Assembly: GCF_019733395.1 (NCBI RefSeq)
Contig: NZ_JAIHOO010000001.1
Coordinates: 3,906,501-3,970,500, forward strand
Length of the DNA: 64,000 nt
Reading direction: 5' to 3'
From: Lysobacter sp. BMK333-48F3
GTDB taxonomy: Bacteria; Pseudomonadota; Gammaproteobacteria; Xanthomonadales; Xanthomonadaceae
Shown: one piece after another, positions 50,863 through 64,000 of the stretch
How the letters are laid out: every line of letters begins with the position of its first letter
Numbering within the stretch: position 1 is the first letter of the stretch
Program-made: the position numbers and the translations under genes
The notes under the pieces: generated by a model
What the model was told of the DNA's origin: nothing
Seen by the model: only the letters and a program-made list of their open reading frames with translations
The model's database searches: none

Positions 50863-51445
50863 CTCCCTTCCCCTGTTCCTGTCGCGACCGAGCGTCCGGT
50901 CGCCTATTGATATGGATAACAATCGCGGTGGCGGCTCGGCAACGAGCGCGACTGAAGGGGCTTGCGTGATTCAAATCACTTTTCACGAGGCTGAATGAGT
51001 ATTGTTAGGAGGCGATGAATTCCGTTATGGCGTTGCACAAAATCCGCGATTAGTTGGTGTATCGATGCGTAGTTTCTTATAGCTGCGCATGAATATTGCT
51101 AAGCACATTAAGGCCGATGTCGCATTCGGCTCAAACACCAAATTTTGCAAAATGAATTTGCGCTGAATAGTAAATGTTGAACATTATTTCCCTGCGCGAG
51201 CGCACGGTGGCGATATTTGTGACCGCTTGTGGAATTGTTTATCTGGCCGATATTGGCCGGCGGCGCCGGTATTTTCTTTTCATGAATACGCGATGCCGCC
51301 GCGCGAGTATCAAATTCCGGTCCATCGCATGACGGGAGGGGCGCGGACGGGCGGGTGCCGGCTGGCGGGGCCGGCCGCGACGCGGCTGTTGCGCCGCTCA
51401 TGTTGCATGGCAACATGTGGCCGTACCCCATCGGACTGTCCCGCG
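50863..51445. promoter_or_regulatory. AT-rich divergent region tssA / nasT
   Basis: 583 bp without a gene between the divergent T6SS and nasTS transcripts. About 50990-51290 is clearly poorer in G+C than its neighbours. It holds ATTTTGCAAAAT (51142-51153, a perfect 12-bp palindrome), AATGTT-G-AACATT (51173-51185) and the Crp-like site at 50966. TATCAAT-like -10 candidates exist toward tssA (about 50900-50912), but no full promoter could be fixed. Confidence 0.55.
50966..50979. promoter_or_regulatory. Crp/Fnr/Clp-type operator candidate
   Basis: GTGATTCAAATCAC has perfect GTGA-N6-TCAC half sites, as bound by CRP and by the Xanthomonad regulator Clp. It is also close to the Fnr-type TTGAT-N4-ATCAA. 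Located 104 bp upstream of the tssA start. Confidence 0.5.
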
Positions 51446-52021
51446 ATGCCGCGTGTGCTGCTGGTCACCGACACCGACAAGCCGATCGGCGAACTGCGCG
51501 CGGTCCTGCAGGCGGCCGGGCACGAGGTGCTGGGTGAAGTCGCGACGACCTGCGGTCTGCTACGTGCGGTCGAGACCGAGCGCCCGGACGTGGTCATCGT
51601 CGACGTCGACTCGCCTTCGCGCGACGCCCTGGAGCAGTTGGCGATGTTGCATGCTCATGCGCCGCGGCCGGTGGTGATGTTCTCCGCCGACGGCGACGAG
51701 CGTCTGATCCGTGCTGCGGTCGGCGCCGGGGTCGCCGCTTATGTGGTCGACGGCCTGGCGCCGGAGCGGCTGGCCTCGATCGTCCAGGTCGCGATGGCGC
51801 GCTTCGAGCATCAGGCCGACCTGCGCCAGCGCCTGGACCGGGTCCAGCAGCAATTGCTCGACCGCAAGCTGATCGACCGCGCCAAGGGCTTGTTGATGGA
51901 GAAGCGCGGCATGAGCGAGGCGCAGGCCTATGCCGCGTTGCGCCAGCAGGCGATGAAGCAGGGCGCCAGGCTGGCCGACGTGGCGCGGCGGATCATCGAC
52001 CTGGCCGAACTGCTGGGATGA
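51446..52021 (+). CDS. nasT: ANTAR-domain antiterminator NasT
   Basis: A 191-residue response-regulator-like RNA-binding protein. The N-terminal receiver-like domain has VLLVTDTDKPIGELRAVLQ and VVIVDVDSPSRDALEQLAML. The C-terminal ANTAR domain shows LIDRAKGLLMEKRGMSEAQAYAALRQQAM in outline with the usual three-helix pattern. NasT binds paired hexaloop hairpins in nitrate-operon leaders and prevents termination; NasS, encoded 7 nt downstream, holds it inactive without nitrate. A matching leader lies before narK in this window. The start at 51446 gives MPRVLLVTD; upstream codons are not protein-like. Confidence 0.9.
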   Translation: MPRVLLVTDTDKPIGELRAVLQAAGHEVLGEVATTCGLLRAVETERPDVVIVDVDSPSRDALEQLAMLHAHAPRPVVMFSADGDERLIRAAVGAGVAAYVVDGLAPERLASIVQVAMARFEHQADLRQRLDRVQQQLLDRKLIDRAKGLLMEKRGMSEAQAYAALRQQAMKQGARLADVARRIIDLAELLG

Positions 52022-52028
52022 GGAGCCG

Positions 52029-53081
52029 ATGAGCGAGAGCACCGACGTCACCCTGAGCTTGGGCTATCTGCCGCTGATCGACTGCGCGCCGCTGATCGTC
52101 GCGGCCCGGCTCGGCTTCGATCGTCGCCACGGCCTGCGCTTGCGCTTGCAGCGGCAGGCCTCCTGGGCCGCCCTGCGCGACAAGCTGCTGTCGGGCGAAC
52201 TCGACGCCGCGCAGGCCCTGGCCGGACTGGTCTACGGCGTCGACGCCGGCATCGGCGGACCGCAGGCCGACCTGGCGGTGCTGATGACGCTCAATCACAA
52301 CGGCCAGGCGATCGTGCTGTCCTCGTCGCTGGCCGCGGCGCTGGCCGAGGGCCGCGACGTGCGCGCCGCCCTGGCGACGCTGCCGCGCGTGCCGGTGTTC
52401 GCCCAGACCTTTCCCACCGGCACCCACGCGATGTGGCTGTACGGCTGGTTGGCCGGGCAGGGCGTGGACCCGCTGCGCGAGGTGCGCAGCCTGACCCTGC
52501 CGCCGCCGCAGATGCCGCAGGCGCTGGCGCGCGGCGAACTCGACGGGTTCTGCGCCGGTGAGCCTTGGGCCGCCGAGGCCATTGCTGCGCATGCGGGTGC
52601 GGTCGCGTTGCCCAGCGGCCGGCTGTGGCCGGGGCATCCGGAAAAGGTGCTGGCCTGCCGGCGCGCGTTCGCCGCCTTGCAGCCGGATACGGCGACGGCG
52701 CTGACCGCCGCGGTGCTGGAAGCCTGCCGCTGGCTCGACGAGCCGCAGAACCGGTGCGAGGCCGTGGCCTGGCTGGCGCAACCGGAGGCGATCGGTCTGC
52801 CGGCGGCGACGATCGCCGACTGTCTGCTGGCGCAGCCGCCGACCGACCCGTCGGCGCTGCGCTTCCACGGCGACGGCGAGGTCAACCCGCCGCGGCGTTC
52901 GGACGGGCGCTGGTTCCTGCGCCAGTTCCGCCGCTGGGGCTGGCTGGCGCCGGCCGCGGCGGACGAGGAGGAAACCCGCTTGGCCGATCTGCATCGGCTC
53001 GATAGCTATCGTTCCGCCGCGCAGCGCCTGGGCATCGCCCTGCCCGTATCGGTCGAACGCCCCGACCCCGTCGCTTGGTAG
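52029..53081 (+). CDS. nasS: Nitrate-sensing protein NasS (NrtA/CmpA-like)
   Basis: A 350-residue protein of the nitrate-binding NrtA/CmpA family. It begins TDVTLSLGYLPLIDCAPLIVAARLGFD without a signal peptide, so it is cytoplasmic, which marks it as the NasS sensor rather than an ABC transporter binding protein. Further family features are GELDAAQALAGLVYG, HNGQAIVLS, GTHAMWLYGWLAGQGVDP and GELDGFCAGEPWAAEA. It is known elsewhere to release NasT when nitrate binds. Translation is adjacent to nasT (GAGG before ATG). Confidence 0.88.
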   Translation: MSESTDVTLSLGYLPLIDCAPLIVAARLGFDRRHGLRLRLQRQASWAALRDKLLSGELDAAQALAGLVYGVDAGIGGPQADLAVLMTLNHNGQAIVLSSSLAAALAEGRDVRAALATLPRVPVFAQTFPTGTHAMWLYGWLAGQGVDPLREVRSLTLPPPQMPQALARGELDGFCAGEPWAAEAIAAHAGAVALPSGRLWPGHPEKVLACRRAFAALQPDTATALTAAVLEACRWLDEPQNRCEAVAWLAQPEAIGLPAATIADCLLAQPPTDPSALRFHGDGEVNPPRRSDGRWFLRQFRRWGWLAPAAADEEETRLADLHRLDSYRSAAQRLGIALPVSVERPDPVAW

Positions 53082-53197: not shown

Positions 53198-54030
53198 GGT
53201 AATTCCTAACGTTTCTGGACCAAAAGTGGAGTGATTTGGTCAAGGTCTATGACCCGCAGAGCCTTGTCCAGCAAGGCTTGCAGGTCTTCGGCCCGGTGGT
53301 TGTAGCGGTAGCAAACTTCACCCAAATACAGATGGAAGAATTGGCGGGGCACCCCACGGTACGGGGCTAACCAGTTCTTGGCGTAGCTCCAGAAGCCTTC
53401 GATGCCGTTGATGTGGTCGCGTCCGACCGGCTTGCCCTTCTCCTTGCGGATCATCACGTGGTCGCCTCGTAGCTTCAGCGTGGCGTACGCCTGCCAGCGG
53501 TCGGTGTAGTACAGCGACCCTTCGCGGGTGTGCGCCTCGATCTGCTGCATCACGCTGTCGCGATCGTGCGCCGCGATCGGCATGGCCTTGACCTGGCCGT
53601 TGCGCTTGACGATGCCGAACACGATCACCTTGCCGGCGGCGCCCCAACCGGTTTTGCCATGACGTATGCCGCCAAACGTAGTTTCGTCGCATTCCACGAC
53701 CCCATCGAACGGCCCTCGCCACTGCTCTTCGAAGGCGCAGCAAGCCCGCAGGACGCGGTAGAACTTTTCTGCCGTGGCCGGGCTGCATACGGGCCGGAAT
53801 CGCTGCCGGTAGACCGGTACGCCCAGAGCGAAACGTTCGATCAGTTGCCGCTTCTGGGAAGCGCTCAATCGGACCGATTCCCAGGCCAAGACGGCCGGAC
53901 GAAAGCGATGGGCGCACGCCCGGCACTTGAGCCGTCCATCGCTCAATTTCCATGGCCGCGCACGTTGGCAAACAGGACATTTTTGCATCTGGAACCAGCC
54001 TAATCTGGTCCAGATTCGTAGGGAATTACC
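53198..54030 (-). mobile_element. IS1595-family insertion sequence (833 bp), second subgroup
   Basis: Ends are GGTAATTCC(TA) at 53198 and the inverse (TA)GGGAATTACC at 54030; the inverted repeat continues imperfectly inward (CTGGACCA / TGGTCCAG). A perfect 8-bp target duplication TTTTTCAA flanks it (53190-53197 and 54031-54038). It is inserted at the same point of repeat element B as the IS at 5590. Appears intact. Confidence 0.9.
53206..53988 (-). CDS. IS1595-family transposase with N-terminal zinc ribbon
   Basis: A 260-residue transposase. A zinc ribbon opens the protein (KCPVCQRARPWKLSDGRLKCRAC, in outline CxxC...CxxC). The DDE core shows VVECDETTFGGIRHGKTG, KVIVFGIVKRNG, LYYTDRWQAYATL and HINGIEGFWSYAKNWL with YLGEVCYRYNHR at the end. 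This zinc-ribbon architecture separates it from the other IS1595-type transposase in the window. No frameshift seen. Confidence 0.92.
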   Translation of the reverse strand: MQKCPVCQRARPWKLSDGRLKCRACAHRFRPAVLAWESVRLSASQKRQLIERFALGVPVYRQRFRPVCSPATAEKFYRVLRACCAFEEQWRGPFDGVVECDETTFGGIRHGKTGWGAAGKVIVFGIVKRNGQVKAMPIAAHDRDSVMQQIEAHTREGSLYYTDRWQAYATLKLRGDHVMIRKEKGKPVGRDHINGIEGFWSYAKNWLAPYRGVPRQFFHLYLGEVCYRYNHRAEDLQALLDKALRVIDLDQITPLLVQKR

Positions 54031-57482: not shown

Positions 57483-57661
57483 CCGACGCGGCCACGGCTT
57501 ACGCCTGCGACACGTCGAGACCTGGTGCGTCGCACAATATTGGTGCAGCGCCGCACGATTTTGGCGCGGCGGGGCTGCCTGGCGCTGATCCACGCAGGAG
57601 GCAGGGCGCCTAAGCATCTGAATTTGTAACGAATCACATTCGACGAATGCCTCGCACGCGA

Positions 57662-57679
57662 TTGGCACGGGCTTTGCTT
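57662..57679 (+). promoter_or_regulatory. Sigma-54 promoter of the nitrate assimilation operon
   Basis: TTGGCACGGGCTTTGCTT matches the RpoN -24/-12 consensus with GG at 57664-57665, GC at 57676-57677 and exactly 10 nt between them. Transcription should begin about 57689, directly before the first leader hairpin. Confidence 0.85.
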
Positions 57680-57689
57680 GATCTGTCGT

Positions 57690-57761
57690 GCGGGCGCAAC
57701 GGCGCGTTCGCGACAACCCGATAGCGGCAGGCGGACCAACGGCGGTCCGGTTGCCGAAGAC
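57690..57761 (+). promoter_or_regulatory. ANTAR (NasT) target: two hairpins with AACGGC hexaloops
   Basis: Hairpin P1: stem GCGGGCGC / GCGTTCGC (57690-57697, 57704-57711) with loop AACGGC. Hairpin P2: stem CGGACC / GGTCCG (57732-57737, 57744-57749), extended by CGGCA / TGCCG (57725-57729, 57752-57756), with the same loop AACGGC. Two adjacent hexaloops with A at position 1 and G at position 4 are the known ANTAR RNA motif. NasT is encoded at 51446. Confidence 0.85.
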
Positions 57762-57807
57762 AACGGCGTCTTTCCGGTTCGCACCGGGAAGGCGCCGTTT
57801 TCGTTTG
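57762..57807 (+). terminator. Leader terminator before narK
   Basis: Stem AACGGCG / CGCCGTT (57762-57768, 57793-57799) with inner stem TTTCCGGT / ACCGGGAA, then TTTTCGTTT. It lies between the NasT hairpins and narK, so it is expected to stop transcription unless antitermination occurs. Confidence 0.8.
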
Positions 57808-57873
57808 CCCCTTGCGGTCGCCTGGCGTGCCGATGGAACGGCGCGGCGCGGCCACCTTTCGGAGATTGCGCGG

Positions 57874-59079
57874 ATGGATCGTTCGTTCTGGCGGGCCGGG
57901 CATACGCCCACCTTGTTGTCGGCGTTTTTGTATTTCGATCTGAGTTTCATGGTCTGGTACCTGCTGGGGCCGATGCAGGTGCAGATCGCCGAAGCCTTGG
58001 CGCTGGACACGCGCCAACGCGCGCTGATGGTGGCGGTGCCGATCCTGTGCGGCGCGCTGTTGCGTTTGTTGCTGGGCCTGGTGGCCGACCGCATCGGCGC
58101 GCGCCGCACCGGCCTGCTTGCCCAGGGCGTGGTGATCGCGGCGCTGTTCGTGGCCTGGTATTCGGGCGTGCACAGCTATGCGCAGGTGCTGCTGCTCGGC
58201 GCCATGCTCGGCGTCGCCGGCGCCTCGTTCGCGATCGCCTTGCCGCTGGCCTCGCGCTGGTATCCGCCCGAGCACCAGGGCACGGCGATGGGGATCGCCG
58301 GCGCCGGCAACTCGGGCACGGTGCTGGCGGCGCTGTTCGCGCCGGCCTTGGCCGCTGCGTTCGGCTACCGCAACGTGTTCGGCCTGGCCTGCCTGCCGCT
58401 GCTCGTCGTGTTGGCGGTGTTCGCCCTGTACGCCAAGGACGCGCCGGTGGCGGTACCGCAGCGGCGCCTGCGCGATTACGGCCGGGTGCTGGTCGGCAAC
58501 CGCGATTCGTGGTGGTTCATGTTCTTCTACGCGATCACCTTCGGCGGTTTCGCCGGCTTCGCCAGCGCCTTGCCCGGCTACTTCCACGATCAGTTCGGCT
58601 TCGAACCCAAGCTCGCCGGCTGGGCCACCGCGGCCTGCGTGCTGGCCGGCTCGCTGATGCGTCCGTTCGGCGGCGCGATCGCCGACCGCATCGGCGGTAC
58701 CCGCACCTTGCTGGCGGTGTACGCGCTGGCGGCGTTGCTGGTCGCGTTGGCCGCGTTGGGCCTGGGCGCGGCGGCGACGGTGGGCCTGTTCGTGCTGACC
58801 CTGCTGTGCCTGGGCGCCGGCAACGGCGCGGTGTTCCAACTCGTGCCGCAGCGCTTCGGCAGCGACATCGGCCTGATGACCGGCCTGATCGGCATGGCCG
58901 GCGGCGTCGGCGGTTTCCTGCTCGCCGCCGGCATGGGCGTGCTCAAGCAGGAATACGGCAGCTATGCGCCCGGCCTGTGGGGCTTCGCCGCATTCGCCGG
59001 ACTGGCCTGGTTGTCGGTGGCGGGATTGCGCCAGCACTGGCGCCAGCAGTGGACCGCGGTCGGCGCGGCCCGGGTCTGA
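57874..59079 (+). CDS. Nitrate/nitrite MFS transporter (NarK/NasA type)
   Basis: A 401-residue inner-membrane transporter with about 12 helices. It begins MDRSFWRAGHTPTLLSAFLY. The nitrate-porter signatures are visible: GAGNSGTVLAALFAPALA (first NNP motif, G-rich) and GMAGGVGGFLLAAGMG (second). The conserved arginines lie in GALLRLLLG and AGSLMRPFGG. It is the first gene of the operon, 11 nt before nirB. Uptake of nitrate for assimilation is the expected role. The ATG at 57874 is preceded by CGGAG. Confidence 0.93.
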   Translation: MDRSFWRAGHTPTLLSAFLYFDLSFMVWYLLGPMQVQIAEALALDTRQRALMVAVPILCGALLRLLLGLVADRIGARRTGLLAQGVVIAALFVAWYSGVHSYAQVLLLGAMLGVAGASFAIALPLASRWYPPEHQGTAMGIAGAGNSGTVLAALFAPALAAAFGYRNVFGLACLPLLVVLAVFALYAKDAPVAVPQRRLRDYGRVLVGNRDSWWFMFFYAITFGGFAGFASALPGYFHDQFGFEPKLAGWATAACVLAGSLMRPFGGAIADRIGGTRTLLAVYALAALLVALAALGLGAAATVGLFVLTLLCLGAGNGAVFQLVPQRFGSDIGLMTGLIGMAGGVGGFLLAAGMGVLKQEYGSYAPGLWGFAAFAGLAWLSVAGLRQHWRQQWTAVGAARV

Positions 59080-59090
59080 GGGGAGAGCCC

Positions 59091-61544
59091 ATGAACAAAC
59101 TCAAGCTGGTGGTGATCGGCAACGGCATGGCGGGCATCCGCACGCTGGAAGAACTGCTCAAGCTGGCGCCGGAGCTGTACGACATCACCGTGTTCGGCGC
59201 CGAGCCGCATCCGAACTACAACCGGATCCTGCTGTCGCCGGTGCTGGCCGGCGAGCAGGCCTTCGACGACATCGTGCTCAATCCGTTGTCGTGGTACGAG
59301 CAGAACGGGATCCGCCTGCACCTGGGCAAGGAAGTAGTGCGGATCGACCGGGTGCGCCGGCGGGTGATCGCCGCCGACGGTACCGAAGCCGAGTACGACC
59401 GCCTGCTGCTGGCCACCGGCTCGCTGCCGATCCTGCTGCCGGTGCCGGGCAAGGACCTGGGCGGGGTGATCAGCTACCGCGACATCCGCGATACCCAGGC
59501 GATGATCGACGCCGCCCGGGTCAAGCGCCATGCGGTGGTGATCGGCGGCGGCCTGCTCGGCCTGGAGGCGGCCAACGGCCTGCGCCAGCGCGGCATGGAG
59601 GTGGTGGTGGTGCACCTGGCCGAGTGGCTGCTCGAGCGCCAGCTCGACCCGGTCGCGGGCGAGTTGCTGCAACGCTCGCTGAGCGAGCGCGGCCTGCGCT
59701 TCCGCCTGGGCACCTCGACCGAGGCCTTGCTCGGCGACGAGCAAGGTGCGGTGCGCGCGGTGCGCTTCTCCGACGGCAGCGAGGAGCCGGCCGAACTGGT
59801 GGTGATGGCGGTCGGCATCCGTCCCAACATCCGCCTGGCCCAGGACGCGGGGATCCACTGCGCGCGCGGCATCGTGGTCAACGATTCGCTGCAGACCTAC
59901 GACCCGCGCGTGTACGCGGTCGGCGAATGCGTCAGCCACCGCGGCGTCGCCTACGGCCTGGTCGCGCCGCTGTTCGAGCAGGCCAAGGTCTGCGCCAATC
60001 ATCTGGCGCGCTACGGCATCGGCATCTACCGCGGCTCGGTGTCGTCGACCAAGCTCAAGGTCACCGGCATCGATCTGTTCTCGGCCGGCGAATTCATGGG
60101 CGGCGAGGGCTGCGACGAGATCGTGCTGTCCGACCCGGCCGGTGGGGTCTACAAGAAACTGGTGATCCGCGACGAGCGCCTGGTCGGCGCCTGCCTGTAC
60201 GGCGACACCGGCGACGGCGGCTGGTATTTCAAGCTGCTCAAGGACGCGAGCCCGATCGACGACCGCCGCGACCAGCTGATCTTCGGCGAGACCGCGCTCG
60301 GCGACGCCGGCACCGCCGGCCAGGACCGCGCCAGCGCGATGGCCGACGCCGACGAGGTCTGCGGCTGCAACGGGGTCAGCAAGGGTTGCATCGTCAAGGC
60401 GATCAACGAGCAGGGCCTGTTCACCGTCGACGAGGTCAAGAAGCAGACCAAGGCCGCCAGTTCCTGCGGTTCCTGCACCGGCCTGGTCGAGCAGTTGCTG
60501 ATGAACTGCCTGGGTTCGAATTTCCAGGAAACGCCCAAGACCAAGGCGGTGTGCGGCTGCACCGACCACAGCCACGGCGAGGTGCGCCAGGCGATCCGCG
60601 AGCACAAGCTGCTCAGCCACGCCCAGGCCTACGCCTTCCTGGAATGGCGCTCGCCCAACGGCTGCGCGACTTGCCGGCCGGCGATCAACTACTACCTGAT
60701 CTCGACCTGGCCGCGCGAAGCGGTCGACGACCCGCAGTCGCGCTTCATCAACGAGCGCGCCCACGCCAACATCCAGAAGGACGGCACGTTCTCGGTGATT
60801 CCGCAGATGAAGGGCGGGGTGACCAACGCCTCGGAACTGCGCCGGATCGCCGACGTCGCCGACAAGTACGCGATCCCGATGGTCAAGGTCACCGGCGGCC
60901 AGCGCATCGACCTGCTCGGAGTCAAGAAAGAAGACCTGGTCGAGGTCTGGCGCGATCTGGGAATGAATTCCGGCCACGCCTACGGCAAGTCGATCCGCAC
61001 GGTGAAGACCTGCGTCGGCAGCGAGTTCTGCCGCTTCGGCACCCAGAACAGCACCCAGATGGGCATCGACCTGGAAACCATGCTGGCCAACATGTGGAGC
61101 CCGCACAAGGTCAAGCTGGCGGTGTCGGGCTGCCCGCGCAACTGCGCCGAGTCCGGGATCAAGGACGTCGGCATCATCGCGGTGGATTCGGGCTGGGAGA
61201 TCCACGTCGGCGGCAACGGCGGGATCAAGACCGAGGTCGCGCGCTTCCTGGTCAAGGTGCGCAGCGCCGAGGAGGTGCGCGAGTACACCGGCGCCTTCCT
61301 GCAGCTGTACCGCGAGCAGGCCTATTACCTGGACCGCACCGTGCACTACCTGCAGCGGGTCGGGATGGACTACGTGCAGCAGCGGGTGGTCGCCGACGCG
61401 GCCAACCGGCGCGCCTTGTACGAGCGCTTGCTGTACGCGCTGGAAGGCCTGACCGACCCGTGGGCGGCGCGGATCGCCGCGGCCAAGCCGCGCGAGTACC
61501 AGCGCCTGCGGATTCCGGCGCAGTTGGTCGGGGCGGAGGGCTGA
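59091..61544 (+). CDS. nirB: Assimilatory NAD(P)H-nitrite reductase large subunit
   Basis: An 817-residue enzyme reducing nitrite to ammonium in the cytoplasm. The N-terminal FAD/NAD domain shows VVIGNGMAGIRTLEELL and AVVIGGGLLGLEAANGL. Two BFD-like iron-sulfur segments follow (CGCNGVSKGCIVKAI...SSCGSC and CGCTDHSHGEVRQAI...CATC). The siroheme/[4Fe-4S] domain has its four Cys ligands, C641 and C647 (TCVGSEFCRFG) and C681 and C685 (SGCPRNC). It ends RIPAQLVGAEG. Full length. GGGGAG Shine-Dalgarno before the ATG. Confidence 0.96.
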   Translation: MNKLKLVVIGNGMAGIRTLEELLKLAPELYDITVFGAEPHPNYNRILLSPVLAGEQAFDDIVLNPLSWYEQNGIRLHLGKEVVRIDRVRRRVIAADGTEAEYDRLLLATGSLPILLPVPGKDLGGVISYRDIRDTQAMIDAARVKRHAVVIGGGLLGLEAANGLRQRGMEVVVVHLAEWLLERQLDPVAGELLQRSLSERGLRFRLGTSTEALLGDEQGAVRAVRFSDGSEEPAELVVMAVGIRPNIRLAQDAGIHCARGIVVNDSLQTYDPRVYAVGECVSHRGVAYGLVAPLFEQAKVCANHLARYGIGIYRGSVSSTKLKVTGIDLFSAGEFMGGEGCDEIVLSDPAGGVYKKLVIRDERLVGACLYGDTGDGGWYFKLLKDASPIDDRRDQLIFGETALGDAGTAGQDRASAMADADEVCGCNGVSKGCIVKAINEQGLFTVDEVKKQTKAASSCGSCTGLVEQLLMNCLGSNFQETPKTKAVCGCTDHSHGEVRQAIREHKLLSHAQAYAFLEWRSPNGCATCRPAINYYLISTWPREAVDDPQSRFINERAHANIQKDGTFSVIPQMKGGVTNASELRRIADVADKYAIPMVKVTGGQRIDLLGVKKEDLVEVWRDLGMNSGHAYGKSIRTVKTCVGSEFCRFGTQNSTQMGIDLETMLANMWSPHKVKLAVSGCPRNCAESGIKDVGIIAVDSGWEIHVGGNGGIKTEVARFLVKVRSAEEVREYTGAFLQLYREQAYYLDRTVHYLQRVGMDYVQQRVVADAANRRALYERLLYALEGLTDPWAARIAAAKPREYQRLRIPAQLVGAEG

Positions 61545-61547
61545 GCG

Positions 61548-61904
61548 ATGCACGAGATCGACGACGATCCGCGTTGGCAGCGCATCTGCGTGCTGGAAGA
61601 CATTCCGCGCCTCGGTGCGCGGGTGCTGGAGATCGCCGGCGGCGACGACGTCGCCGTGTTCCGCACCGCCGACGACCGGGTGTTCGCCCTGATCGACCGT
61701 TGCCCGCATAAAGGCGGGCCGCTGTCGCAGGGACTGGTCGCCGGCGACCGGGTGACCTGTCCCTTGCACGCCTGGACGATCGGTTTGGGCGACGGCCGTG
61801 CCTGCGAGCCGGACGTCGGCTGCACGCCGACCTTGCGCGTGCGGCTGCAGGCCGGCGAGGTCTGGCTGGCGCTGGCCGATCTGCCGTTGCGGGGCGCGGC
61901 CTGA
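61548..61904 (+). CDS. nirD: Nitrite reductase small subunit NirD (Rieske)
   Basis: A 118-residue Rieske-type protein, partner of NirB. The [2Fe-2S] ligands are complete: C52 and H54 in CPHKGGPL, C71 and H74 in CPLHAW. It starts 3 nt after the nirB stop and overlaps the nitrate reductase gene by 1 nt. It carries electrons or stabilises NirB in the assimilatory complex. Confidence 0.94.
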   Translation: MHEIDDDPRWQRICVLEDIPRLGARVLEIAGGDDVAVFRTADDRVFALIDRCPHKGGPLSQGLVAGDRVTCPLHAWTIGLGDGRACEPDVGCTPTLRVRLQAGEVWLALADLPLRGAA

Positions 61905-64000
61905 TGGACGGCGGCGGCGCGCCCGGTCGGGAGGCCGACGACCGGATCCGTTCGGTGTGCTGCTACTGCGGCGTCGGTTGCGGCGTGCTGGTGCAGACCG
62001 CCGGCAGCGGCGAGCAGCGGCGCATCGTCGCGGTCGAGGGCGACCCGCAGCATCCGGCCAACCAGGGCCGGCTGTGCAGCAAGGGCCGCGCCCTGGCGCA
62101 GAGCGCGAGCAGCCTGCAGGGGCGGTTGCTGGCGCCGCAGCTGCGGCCGTCGCGGCATGCGCCGCGGCGCGAGGTCGACTGGTCGCTGGCGCTGGACACG
62201 GTGGCCGCGCGGCTGGCCTCGATCGTGGCCGAACACGGTCCGGACTCGGTCGCGTTCTACTTGTCCGGGCAGTTGCTGACCGAGGACTACTACGTCTTCA
62301 ACAAGCTCGCCAAAGGCCTGCTGGGCAGCAACAACATCGATACCAATTCGCGTCTGTGCATGTCCAGCGCGGTCGCCGGCTACAAGCTCGCGCTCGGCGC
62401 CGACGGGCCGCCGACCTGTTACGAGGACCTGGAGCTGGCGCGTACCGTGCTGTTCGCCGGCAGCAACATGGCCTATGCGCATCCGGTGCTGTTCCGGCGC
62501 CTTGAGCAAGCGCGCGAACGCGATCCGCAGCGGCGCTGGATCGTGGTCGATCCGCGCCGCACCGACACCGCGGCGATGGCCGACCTGCATCTGGCGATCC
62601 AGCCCGGCACCGACGTGGCCTTGTTCAACGGCATGCTGCACCACCTGATCTGGGAAGACCGGATCGACCGCGACTACATCGCCCGCCACACCCAGGGCTT
62701 CGACGAACTCAAGCGGACGCTGCGCGACTACACCCCGCGCATGGCCGCGGAGATCTGCGGCATCGAAGCCGCCGACCTGGTCCAGGCGGCGGAATGGTTC
62801 GGCAGCGGCGAGCCGGCGTTGTCGCTGTACTGCATGGGCCTGAACCAGTCCGCGCACGGCACCGACAAGAACCTGGCCCTGATCCACCTGCATCTGGCCA
62901 CCGGCCAGATCGGCAAGCCCGGCGCCGGCCCGTTCTCGCTGACCGGCCAGCCCAATGCGATGGGCGGACGCGAAGTCGGCGGCATGGCGACCATGCTGGC
63001 CGCGCACCGCGAGATCGGCAACGCCCAGCACCGGGCCGAACTGGAAACGCTGTGGGGCCTGCCGGCGCAGCATCTGTCGGCGCAGCCGGGCCTGTCCGCG
63101 GTGCCGCTGTTCGAGGCCTTGCGCAGCGGTCGGGTCAAGGCGGTGTGGATCGCCTGCACCAACCCGGTGCACTCCATGCCCGACATCGGCCGGGTGCGCG
63201 AAGCGCTGCAGCAGGCCGACTATGTGATCGTGCAGGAAGCCTTCGAACGCACCGACACCACGCCGTATGCCGACGCCTTGCTGCCGGCGGCGACCTGGGG
63301 CGAAAAAGAAGGCACGGTGACCAATTCCGAGCGGCGCATCTCGCGGGTGCGCGCCGCGGTGCCGGCGCCCGGCCGGGCCCGGCCGGACTGGTGGATCGCG
63401 ACCGAAGTCGCGCGCCGGCTGGAAGCGCGGCTGGCGCCGCCCGGCACCGCGCCGATGTTCGGCTTCGACGGGCCGGCGGCGATCTTCGACGAACACCGGC
63501 GGCTGACCGAAGGCCGCGACCTCGACATCGGCGGACTCGACTATGCGCGCCTGGATGCGCAGGGGCCGCAGCAATGGCCGTACCCGGCCGGCGCGCAAAG
63601 CGGACAGGCGCGGCGCTACGCCGACGGCCGCTATCCCACCGACGACGGCCGCGCGCGTTTTCAGCCGACCCCGTACCGGCCGGTGGCCGAGCCCACTTCG
63701 TCGCGGTTTCCGCTGCGCTTGCTCAGCGGCCGGCTGCGCGATCAGTGGCACGGCATGTCGCGTAGCGGCCGGGTGCCGGCGCTGTTCGCGCACAGCCCCG
63801 AGCCCGGCCTGCGCATGCAGGCCCAGGACGCGGCGCGGCGCGGCCTGGCCGCCGGCGATCTGGTGCGGGTGATCGGCAAACGCGGCGAACTGGTGTTGCC
63901 GCTGGAGCTGTCCGACGAAGTGAGTTCCGGCACGGTGTTCGCGGCCATGCACTGGAGCGGCCAGTTCCTGTCCAGCGGCGGCATCAACGAAGTGACCCAG
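61904..64000 (+). CDS. nasC: Assimilatory nitrate reductase catalytic subunit, 3' end missing
   Basis: 699 codons are visible and the frame is open at the window end. It is a molybdopterin (bis-MGD) oxidoreductase: the N-terminal [4Fe-4S] cluster has C19, C22, C26 (CCYCGVGC) and C58 (GRLCSKG). Later signatures are SNNIDTNSRLCMSSAV with the cofactor region, GSNMAYAHPVLF, RRWIVVDPRRTDTAAMADLH in outline, GQPNAMGGREVGGMATML and WGEKEGTVTNSERRIS. It reduces nitrate to nitrite for NirBD. Whether a C-terminal BFD-like domain follows, as in some NasA/NasC, cannot be seen. Confidence 0.95.
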   Translation, partial: MDGGGAPGREADDRIRSVCCYCGVGCGVLVQTAGSGEQRRIVAVEGDPQHPANQGRLCSKGRALAQSASSLQGRLLAPQLRPSRHAPRREVDWSLALDTVAARLASIVAEHGPDSVAFYLSGQLLTEDYYVFNKLAKGLLGSNNIDTNSRLCMSSAVAGYKLALGADGPPTCYEDLELARTVLFAGSNMAYAHPVLFRRLEQARERDPQRRWIVVDPRRTDTAAMADLHLAIQPGTDVALFNGMLHHLIWEDRIDRDYIARHTQGFDELKRTLRDYTPRMAAEICGIEAADLVQAAEWFGSGEPALSLYCMGLNQSAHGTDKNLALIHLHLATGQIGKPGAGPFSLTGQPNAMGGREVGGMATMLAAHREIGNAQHRAELETLWGLPAQHLSAQPGLSAVPLFEALRSGRVKAVWIACTNPVHSMPDIGRVREALQQADYVIVQEAFERTDTTPYADALLPAATWGEKEGTVTNSERRISRVRAAVPAPGRARPDWWIATEVARRLEARLAPPGTAPMFGFDGPAAIFDEHRRLTEGRDLDIGGLDYARLDAQGPQQWPYPAGAQSGQARRYADGRYPTDDGRARFQPTPYRPVAEPTSSRFPLRLLSGRLRDQWHGMSRSGRVPALFAHSPEPGLRMQAQDAARRGLAAGDLVRVIGKRGELVLPLELSDEVSSGTVFAAMHWSGQFLSSGGINEVTQ

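Follow-up and report, generated by a model that had tools for sequence, protein, structure and literature searches.

The closest described relatives of the leader analyzed here are the dual-hexaloop leaders of Enterococcus, exemplified by eutP and its regulator EutV, and the nitrate assimilation leaders of Klebsiella nasF and Paracoccus nasA, regulated by NasR and NasT. The accessible text of one report places the second hairpin of eutP, amiE and nasF out of sight at the base of the terminator, with the two eutP loops starting at A29 and A53, that is 24 nt apart (PMC3369931). As far as the available sections of a later study go, the first hairpin (P1) recruits the protein and the second (P2) brings about antitermination, which is abolished when 20 extra nucleotides are placed between them (PMC8934654). 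A two-hairpin motif has been identified for NasT too, in the accessible part of PMC7496416, and SELEX with NasR is described as favoring a C:G closing pair and a loop with A at position 1 and G at position 4, here A1/G4 (excerpts of PMC7496416; PMC5424462).

The sequence examined is a 64,000-nucleotide stretch of the Lysobacter sp. BMK333-48F3 genome, hereafter the window, and the promoter, the leader, the operon and nasTS all lie on its forward strand. Judged by sequence comparison, the leader of its narK-nirB-nirD-nitrate reductase operon is most probably an antitermination switch operated by NasT and transcribed from an NtrC/RpoN promoter, with an additional hexaloop anchored to that promoter. 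The leader shares with the eutP/EutV type its A1/G4 hexaloops, the 24 nt between two of its loops and a second hairpin inside the terminator (accessible text of PMC3369931; PMC8934654), but a third hexaloop is present at its predicted 5' end, its promoter is of the RpoN type, and the partner gene nasS takes the place of phosphorylation control. With nasF/NasR and nasA/NasT it shares a nitrate assimilation operon and the layering of NtrC control over antitermination (PMC7496416; PMC5424462, in their available parts). In contrast to the present leader, two hairpins are described in those systems, the accessible Paracoccus text naming HI and HII only, and NasR is a one-protein sensor.

The operon opens with a gene for a narK-type nitrate/nitrite MFS transporter (57874-59079; MFS_1, with NCBIfam TIGR00886 at 266.9 bits against a cut-off of 311.7). 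It is followed by nirB, the large subunit of nitrite reductase (59091-61544, from a presumed ATG start; TIGR02374 at 909 bits with a cut-off of 578, run on 59082-61541), by a likely nirD for the Rieske-like small subunit (61548-61904, named by ORF sequence and position) and by a likely assimilatory nitrate reductase gene (61904-64000, named by ORF sequence), which continues past the window. Upstream lie nasT (51446-52021), encoding a response-regulator and an ANTAR domain (PF00072, E 5.8e-11; PF03861, E 1.6e-18) in an ORF that opens at 51227 and probably starts at the ATG at 51446, and nasS (52029-53081; PF13379, E 4.2e-80), the nitrate/nitrite sensor partner that adjoins nasT in relatives. 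In Xanthomonadaceae loci nasTS is found upstream of narK, within a few kb. Between nasTS and the leader of the window are ORFs named by sequence as a LysE-type exporter, an amidohydrolase and a LysR-type regulator, and an IS1595/ISXO2-type transposase gene occupies 53206-53988, between nasS and the narK leader.

A preliminary description had assigned this leader a sigma-54 promoter, and the assignment holds: TGGCAC-N5-TTGCW has a single exact match in the window, the -24/-12 element TGGCACGGGCTTTGCT at 57663-57678, and the genome encodes RpoN. Taking the C of the GC in this element as position -12 predicts a transcription start at about 57689. Across 25 aligned Xanthomonadaceae leaders the element is invariant, its presence being the condition on which those rows were selected; a pattern scan found no anchored -24/-12 element in 10 of 91 narK loci. 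Further upstream are two candidate enhancer sites, an exact GCAC-N7-GTGC (57532-57546) and a one-mismatch copy 21 bp downstream of it (57553-57567), the motif being taken as the NtrC consensus. Exact copies occur 110-148 nt upstream of the -24 box in 20 of the 25 aligned leaders, against a mean of 0.09 and a maximum of 2 of 25 in 300 base shuffles, and four leaders (L014, L015, L026 and L036) carry two exact copies each, 20-21 bp apart. Both rpoN and ntrC score above their cut-offs in the genome, and the upstream sites and the ntrC gene agree with an NtrC-activated promoter.

Downstream of the promoter, the 122-nt leader RNA folds at -70.1 kcal/mol (z -4.9), a value equaled by none of 200 shuffles. 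The first hairpin, H1 (57689-57712), begins at the predicted +1 and has a 9-bp stem closed by the loop AACGGC at 57698-57703 (-12.2 kcal/mol). H2 (57725-57756) carries the same loop at 57738-57743 on a 6-bp core stem spanning 57732-57749 (-22.9 kcal/mol). A third copy, at 57762-57767, caps the 6-bp stem of H3 (57756-57773), where it is flanked by GAAGAC and GTCTTT, at a predicted -4.5 kcal/mol. The intrinsic terminator (57762-57806) has a 17-bp stem, 57762-57778 paired with 57783-57799 (-30.2 kcal/mol), with TTTTCGTTT up to 57806. Its strength is as the preliminary description had it; its T tract is interrupted (57798-57801 and 57804-57806), which counts against the explanation favored here. 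The same description spoke of twin AACGGC hexaloops, and while the coordinates of H1 and H2 were right the number was not: the loop at 57762-57767 had been overlooked, and the leader is a triple one, with A1/G4 in all three loops.

Because H3 uses bases of the 5' arm of the terminator (57762-57778), H3 and the terminator are mutually exclusive, as P2 and terminator are in ANTAR targets. In unconstrained stepwise folding the H3 hairpin appears only transiently. Three A1/G4 hexaloop hairpins with stems of at least 6 bp within 57680-57810 arose in none of 20,000 dinucleotide shuffles, two arose in 5 and one in 663. The word AACGGC itself is common (86 occurrences in the window against a shuffle mean of 52), so the signal is carried by the hairpins and not by the word. 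A fourth A1/G4 hexaloop hairpin lies between the terminator and the narK start (57826-57845, loop ATGGAA at 57833); it is listed for no relative and is probably due to chance.

Which two of the three hairpins make up the NasT pair? The loops of H2 and H3 are 24 nt apart and those of H1 and H2 are 40 nt apart. The 24-nt distance and the position of H3 inside the terminator identify H2 as P1 and H3 as P2, the antiterminator hairpin. This spacing is short and steady among relatives, at 21-26 nt in 27 of 29 Xanthomonadaceae loci, 25 nt in three of four beta-type loci and 22-25 nt in 51 of 53 Pseudomonas-type loci, counts that include duplicate loci and in which the remainder are loci unmatched by the pattern. 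In an Andreprevotia leader (L034, 6749-6950) the hexaloop preceding H3 is 86 nt away, outside the usual 21-26 nt.

The preliminary description had instead paired H1 with H2 and taken the terminator as a separate element that follows, probably because H3 is absent from the minimum-energy fold. That arrangement draws on the identical AACGGC loops of the two hairpins, on their stability relative to H3 (-12.2 and -22.9 against -4.5 kcal/mol), on a linker of 12-19 nt that fits a broad 2-25 nt rule given for actinobacteria in the accessible text of PMC8164766, and on a loop spacing that is fairly steady within the Xanthomonadaceae (36-42 nt in the 25 aligned leaders). However, both hairpins lie clear of the terminator, which could therefore not be blocked by their binding alone; the H1-H2 distance, 40 nt here, reaches 152 nt in one locus (L042), whereas H2-H3 stays at 21-26 nt; and H1 is absent from the promoter-anchored narK leaders of Pseudomonas, where H2 is the first hexaloop. 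The canonical second hexaloop sits in the terminator according to the available portions of PMC3369931 and PMC8934654, a place held here by H3, and a pair made of H1 and H2 is accordingly very unlikely. With H2 and H3 as the pair, H1 is an extra hairpin.

Support for all three hairpins comes from relatives. A NarK scan supplied the best 80 of 553 matches as named loci, and 25 Xanthomonadaceae leaders, chosen for the promoter element, were aligned; two leaders lacking -24/-12 (L010 and L020) and two near duplicates (L017 and L028) were left out, and the counts are not independent since the rows are related to each other. The H1 loop retains A1 and G4 in 24 of the 25 rows, and the H2 and H3 loops do so in all 25 (loop columns unfiltered), which bears out the expectation that the loops upstream of narK would be conserved in relatives. 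The H3 core, GACAACGGCGTC, does not vary at all, and neither do loop positions A1, A2, G4 and C6 of H2; in H1 the A, A and G at positions 1, 2 and 4 are present in 24 rows while positions 3, 5 and 6 drift. The pairs that close the three loops (columns 37/44, 80/87 and 106/113) are C-G in 25 of 25.

Covariation, which the preliminary description had put forward as a check on its hairpins, supports the stems. Changes on both sides of a pair in H1, H2 and H3 together number 43 cells against 15.7 in shuffles, and the combined score of 0.296 (0.178 in shuffles) is reached by none of 500 shuffles and by none of the versions slid along the alignment, all of which score lower. G-U pairs are kept in H1 at columns 36/45 in 14 of the 25 rows, which argues for a structure in RNA, and a DNA palindrome was ruled out on this ground. 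Columns 103, 116 and 142 change jointly in 16 of 25 rows, reading G-C-G in 10 and A-T-A or A-T-G in 6, as expected of two competing helices with a common arm; the other nine rows are gapped (5), C-T-G (3) or G-A-T (1). The outer pairs of H3 are poor, columns 101/118 being unpaired in 19 of 21 lettered rows and 103/116 failing in 4 of 20, and covariation in the terminator alone is close to that of shuffles, 34 of 500 of which reach its score.

The position of the first hexaloop is fixed with respect to the promoter. Counted from the T of TGGCA in the -24 box, an A1/G4 hexaloop starts 34-39 nt downstream in 69 of 76 distinct promoter-anchored loci (the 91 narK loci less the 10 in which the pattern found no anchored promoter and 5 repeats), comprising 31 of 34 Xanthomonadaceae and beta-type loci and 38 of 42 of the Pseudomonas type. 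In narK leaders of the Pseudomonas type this hexaloop is that of P1. Xanthomonadaceae and beta-type leaders carry it on an extra hairpin that precedes P1 and P2; for 27 Xanthomonadaceae loci the distance from the -24 box to H2 is 71-78 nt, and for L042 it is 188 nt. Among 34 loci, 25 of the 27 six-nucleotide-loop hairpins with stems of at least 5 bp in the H1 zone are A1/G4 (500 base shuffles: mean 0.24, maximum 2), and a contiguous 5-bp A1/G4 hairpin is absent from the zone in 9 of 34. Seven anchored loci of the 76 gave no A1/G4 loop: L016, through a misreading by the script, L023, where the H1 stem is kept with the loop CCACGT, L038, with G at loop position 1, and L054, L070, L084 and L097.

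Could H1 be no more than a 5' stem, one that stabilizes the mRNA or suits the initial transcribed region with no contact to NasT, its loop a resemblance by inheritance? The fixed position, with the stem beginning at about +1 or +2 and the loop at that constant distance in 69 of 76 loci, is what such a stem would show. A mere stabilizer has no need of a particular loop, however, and 24 of 25 leaders retain A1 and G4 despite drift at loop positions 3, 5 and 6; moreover, the persistence of the stem without the loop in L023 shows that the two are separable. We regard a plain stem as unlikely, and H1 as an additional NasT hexaloop as the better reading.

Several loci depart from the usual layout. 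In L010 and L020 (the latter Lysobacter penaei), -24/-12 and H1 are both missing, and H2 (loop AACGCA), H3 and the terminator are present. Four leaders about 64-66 nt before narK, those of L040, L041, L048 and L045 (Paraburkholderia), have H1 at the promoter and a second A1/G4 hexaloop hairpin of the type GTCGGGC-AATGGC-GTTCGAC, with no run of four Ts after it; control there is perhaps at translation or by Rho. The L044 leader has a terminator and a further A1/G4 hexaloop hairpin beyond it.

The content of the genome (3 contigs, 5.23 Mb) pairs one regulator with one target. The only ANTAR domain at E <= 0.001 is that of the nasT in the window, and the exact H2-H3 pattern matches once. A covariance model of the 25 leaders, which includes this one, gives a single strong sense-strand match (E 3.8e-29); the next matches lie antisense on the terminator (E 0.003) and then at E 0.8. 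Together with rpoN and ntrC, these counts agree with the earlier proposal of a NasT-type leader under RpoN control. Among 119 genomes of the family, narK is found in 11 (NarK E <= 1e-60) and nasT in 13 (NasT E <= 1e-20), namely all 11 that have narK and 2 of the other 108. Four other genomes of the same genus that were sampled (G015, G062, G090 and G116) have neither gene at these cut-offs, and the cluster is thus patchy within the genus. Across the class, the leader model matches 36 of 369 genomes at E <= 0.01, this genome included. An alternative is an attenuator run by something other than NasT, such as Rho or another RNA-binding protein. The sole ANTAR protein and the sole ANTAR-type target found lie 6 kb apart, and narK is accompanied by nasT in 11 of 11 genomes, although linked genes co-occur anyway; on sequence grounds an attenuator of this kind appears highly improbable.

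A NasT switch at this leader would work as follows. When nitrogen is short, NtrC at 57532 and 57553 would activate RpoN-RNA polymerase to start at about 57689, and H1 and H2 would fold immediately. Without nitrate, NasS would hold NasT, the weak H3 (-4.5 kcal/mol) would lose to the 17-bp terminator, and transcription would stop near 57801-57806. With nitrate, free NasT would bind the hexaloops, move from H2 to H3 and keep H3 closed, depriving the terminator of its 5' arm. H1, as an additional NasT hexaloop at the 5' end of the RNA, may pre-load NasT on the nascent transcript, or may protect the 5' end when bound. Two published results go against such a scheme: mutation of nasT in Bradyrhizobium raised the expression of a narK leader with a predicted NasT hairpin instead of lowering it (accessible text of PMC6759348), and in Paracoccus a mutation of HI is severe while one of HII is nearly without effect with nitrate (available sections of PMC5424462).

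No Rfam family matches the window at its gathering threshold. The narK RNA (RF03032) reaches 24.1 bits, below the threshold of 43.2, and Pseudomonas sRNA P11 (RF00625) reaches 24.2 bits, below 70; ctRNA_pGA1, ctRNA_p42d, MIR1151, SAH, Atu_C3 and M23 also fall below their Rfam thresholds in the window and were taken as chance. The likeness to RF03032 extends to the gene, the -12 segment of an RpoN element, the P1 hairpin and GAC-AAAGAC-GUC, a stretch left undrawn that can be read as P2, but the Rfam structure draws one hairpin and the Pseudomonas narK leaders are without H1. Scanned over the genome itself, RF03032 has 17 matches, all below cut-off, and it also responds in 13 of 14 controls, so that only the rank-1 match at narK is used here. 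Both families reach threshold in six Pseudomonas or Stutzerimonas loci of the nine loci scanned, and in none of the three others.

P11 resembles the present leader in lying upstream of nirB and in having a -24/-12 element of its own, A1/G4 hexaloops and a hexaloop embedded in its terminator; in contrast, its first hexaloop begins 44-52 nt downstream of the -24 box in four leaders, and its extra hexaloop lies between P1 and P2. Its P1 is of the type CCTTC-AACGAT-GAAGG and its terminator-embedded element is GGAC-AAAGGC-GTCC. Measured from that element, all 42 distinct P11-type leaders lie 63-118 nt before the nirB start, and 36 of the 42 have CCCG-N6-CGGG between P1 and P2, with an A1/G4 loop in 36 of 36 (loop unfiltered). 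P11 stands just before nirB in L050 (10073-10209), L057 (10552-10691), L084 (10477-10614), L074 (10311-10449), L047 (10632-10756) and L046 (10591-10718). From these features P11 reads as a putative NasT-type leader of nirB. The accessible text of PMC12080996, citing Marogi 2024, reports that P11 regulates the nirB/nirD/nasC operon and acts in C. elegans, and the C. elegans claim is disputed in the available part of PMC11942167. The features of P11 and the undrawn P2 of RF03032 suggest that both Rfam families are NasT-type leaders whose structures have been drawn incompletely.

Beyond the family, an extra hexaloop on a stem of at least 5 bp is found in 3 of 20 class leaders (shuffle mean 0.2, maximum 3). 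At a looser limit of at least 4 bp, three hexaloops are seen in 12 of 25 class loci with a recognizable H3; in 4 of the 29 loci fetched the pattern found no H3 core. Setting aside L163, whose third hexaloop is inside the terminator stem, and L165 and L166, whose first is far upstream, leaves nine (L147, L151, L152, L156, L160, L161, L164, L169 and L170), with L147, L151 and L152 from one genus. Three hexaloops as a rule across the class are not secured by these counts. We found no description of a triple-hexaloop leader in the searchable literature. The ANTAR/NasT leader family is known; a third hexaloop anchored to the promoter is a variant of it that merits testing. As a tentative proposal, less probable than the switch itself, many NasT leaders may be three-hexaloop devices in which a 5' hexaloop fixed by the RpoN promoter captures NasT on the emerging RNA and passes it to H2 and then to H3 for cooperative antitermination; P11, the Pseudomonas RNA studied as a signal for memory in C. 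elegans, would then arise by attenuation at a leader of this type. ANTAR targets are currently accepted to be dual hairpins, between whose hexaloops the protein moves stepwise in a recent model. That stepping model could be tested directly on a natural leader whose third, conserved hexaloop is tied to the start site, and this genome is a clean case, with a single ANTAR protein and a single target found.
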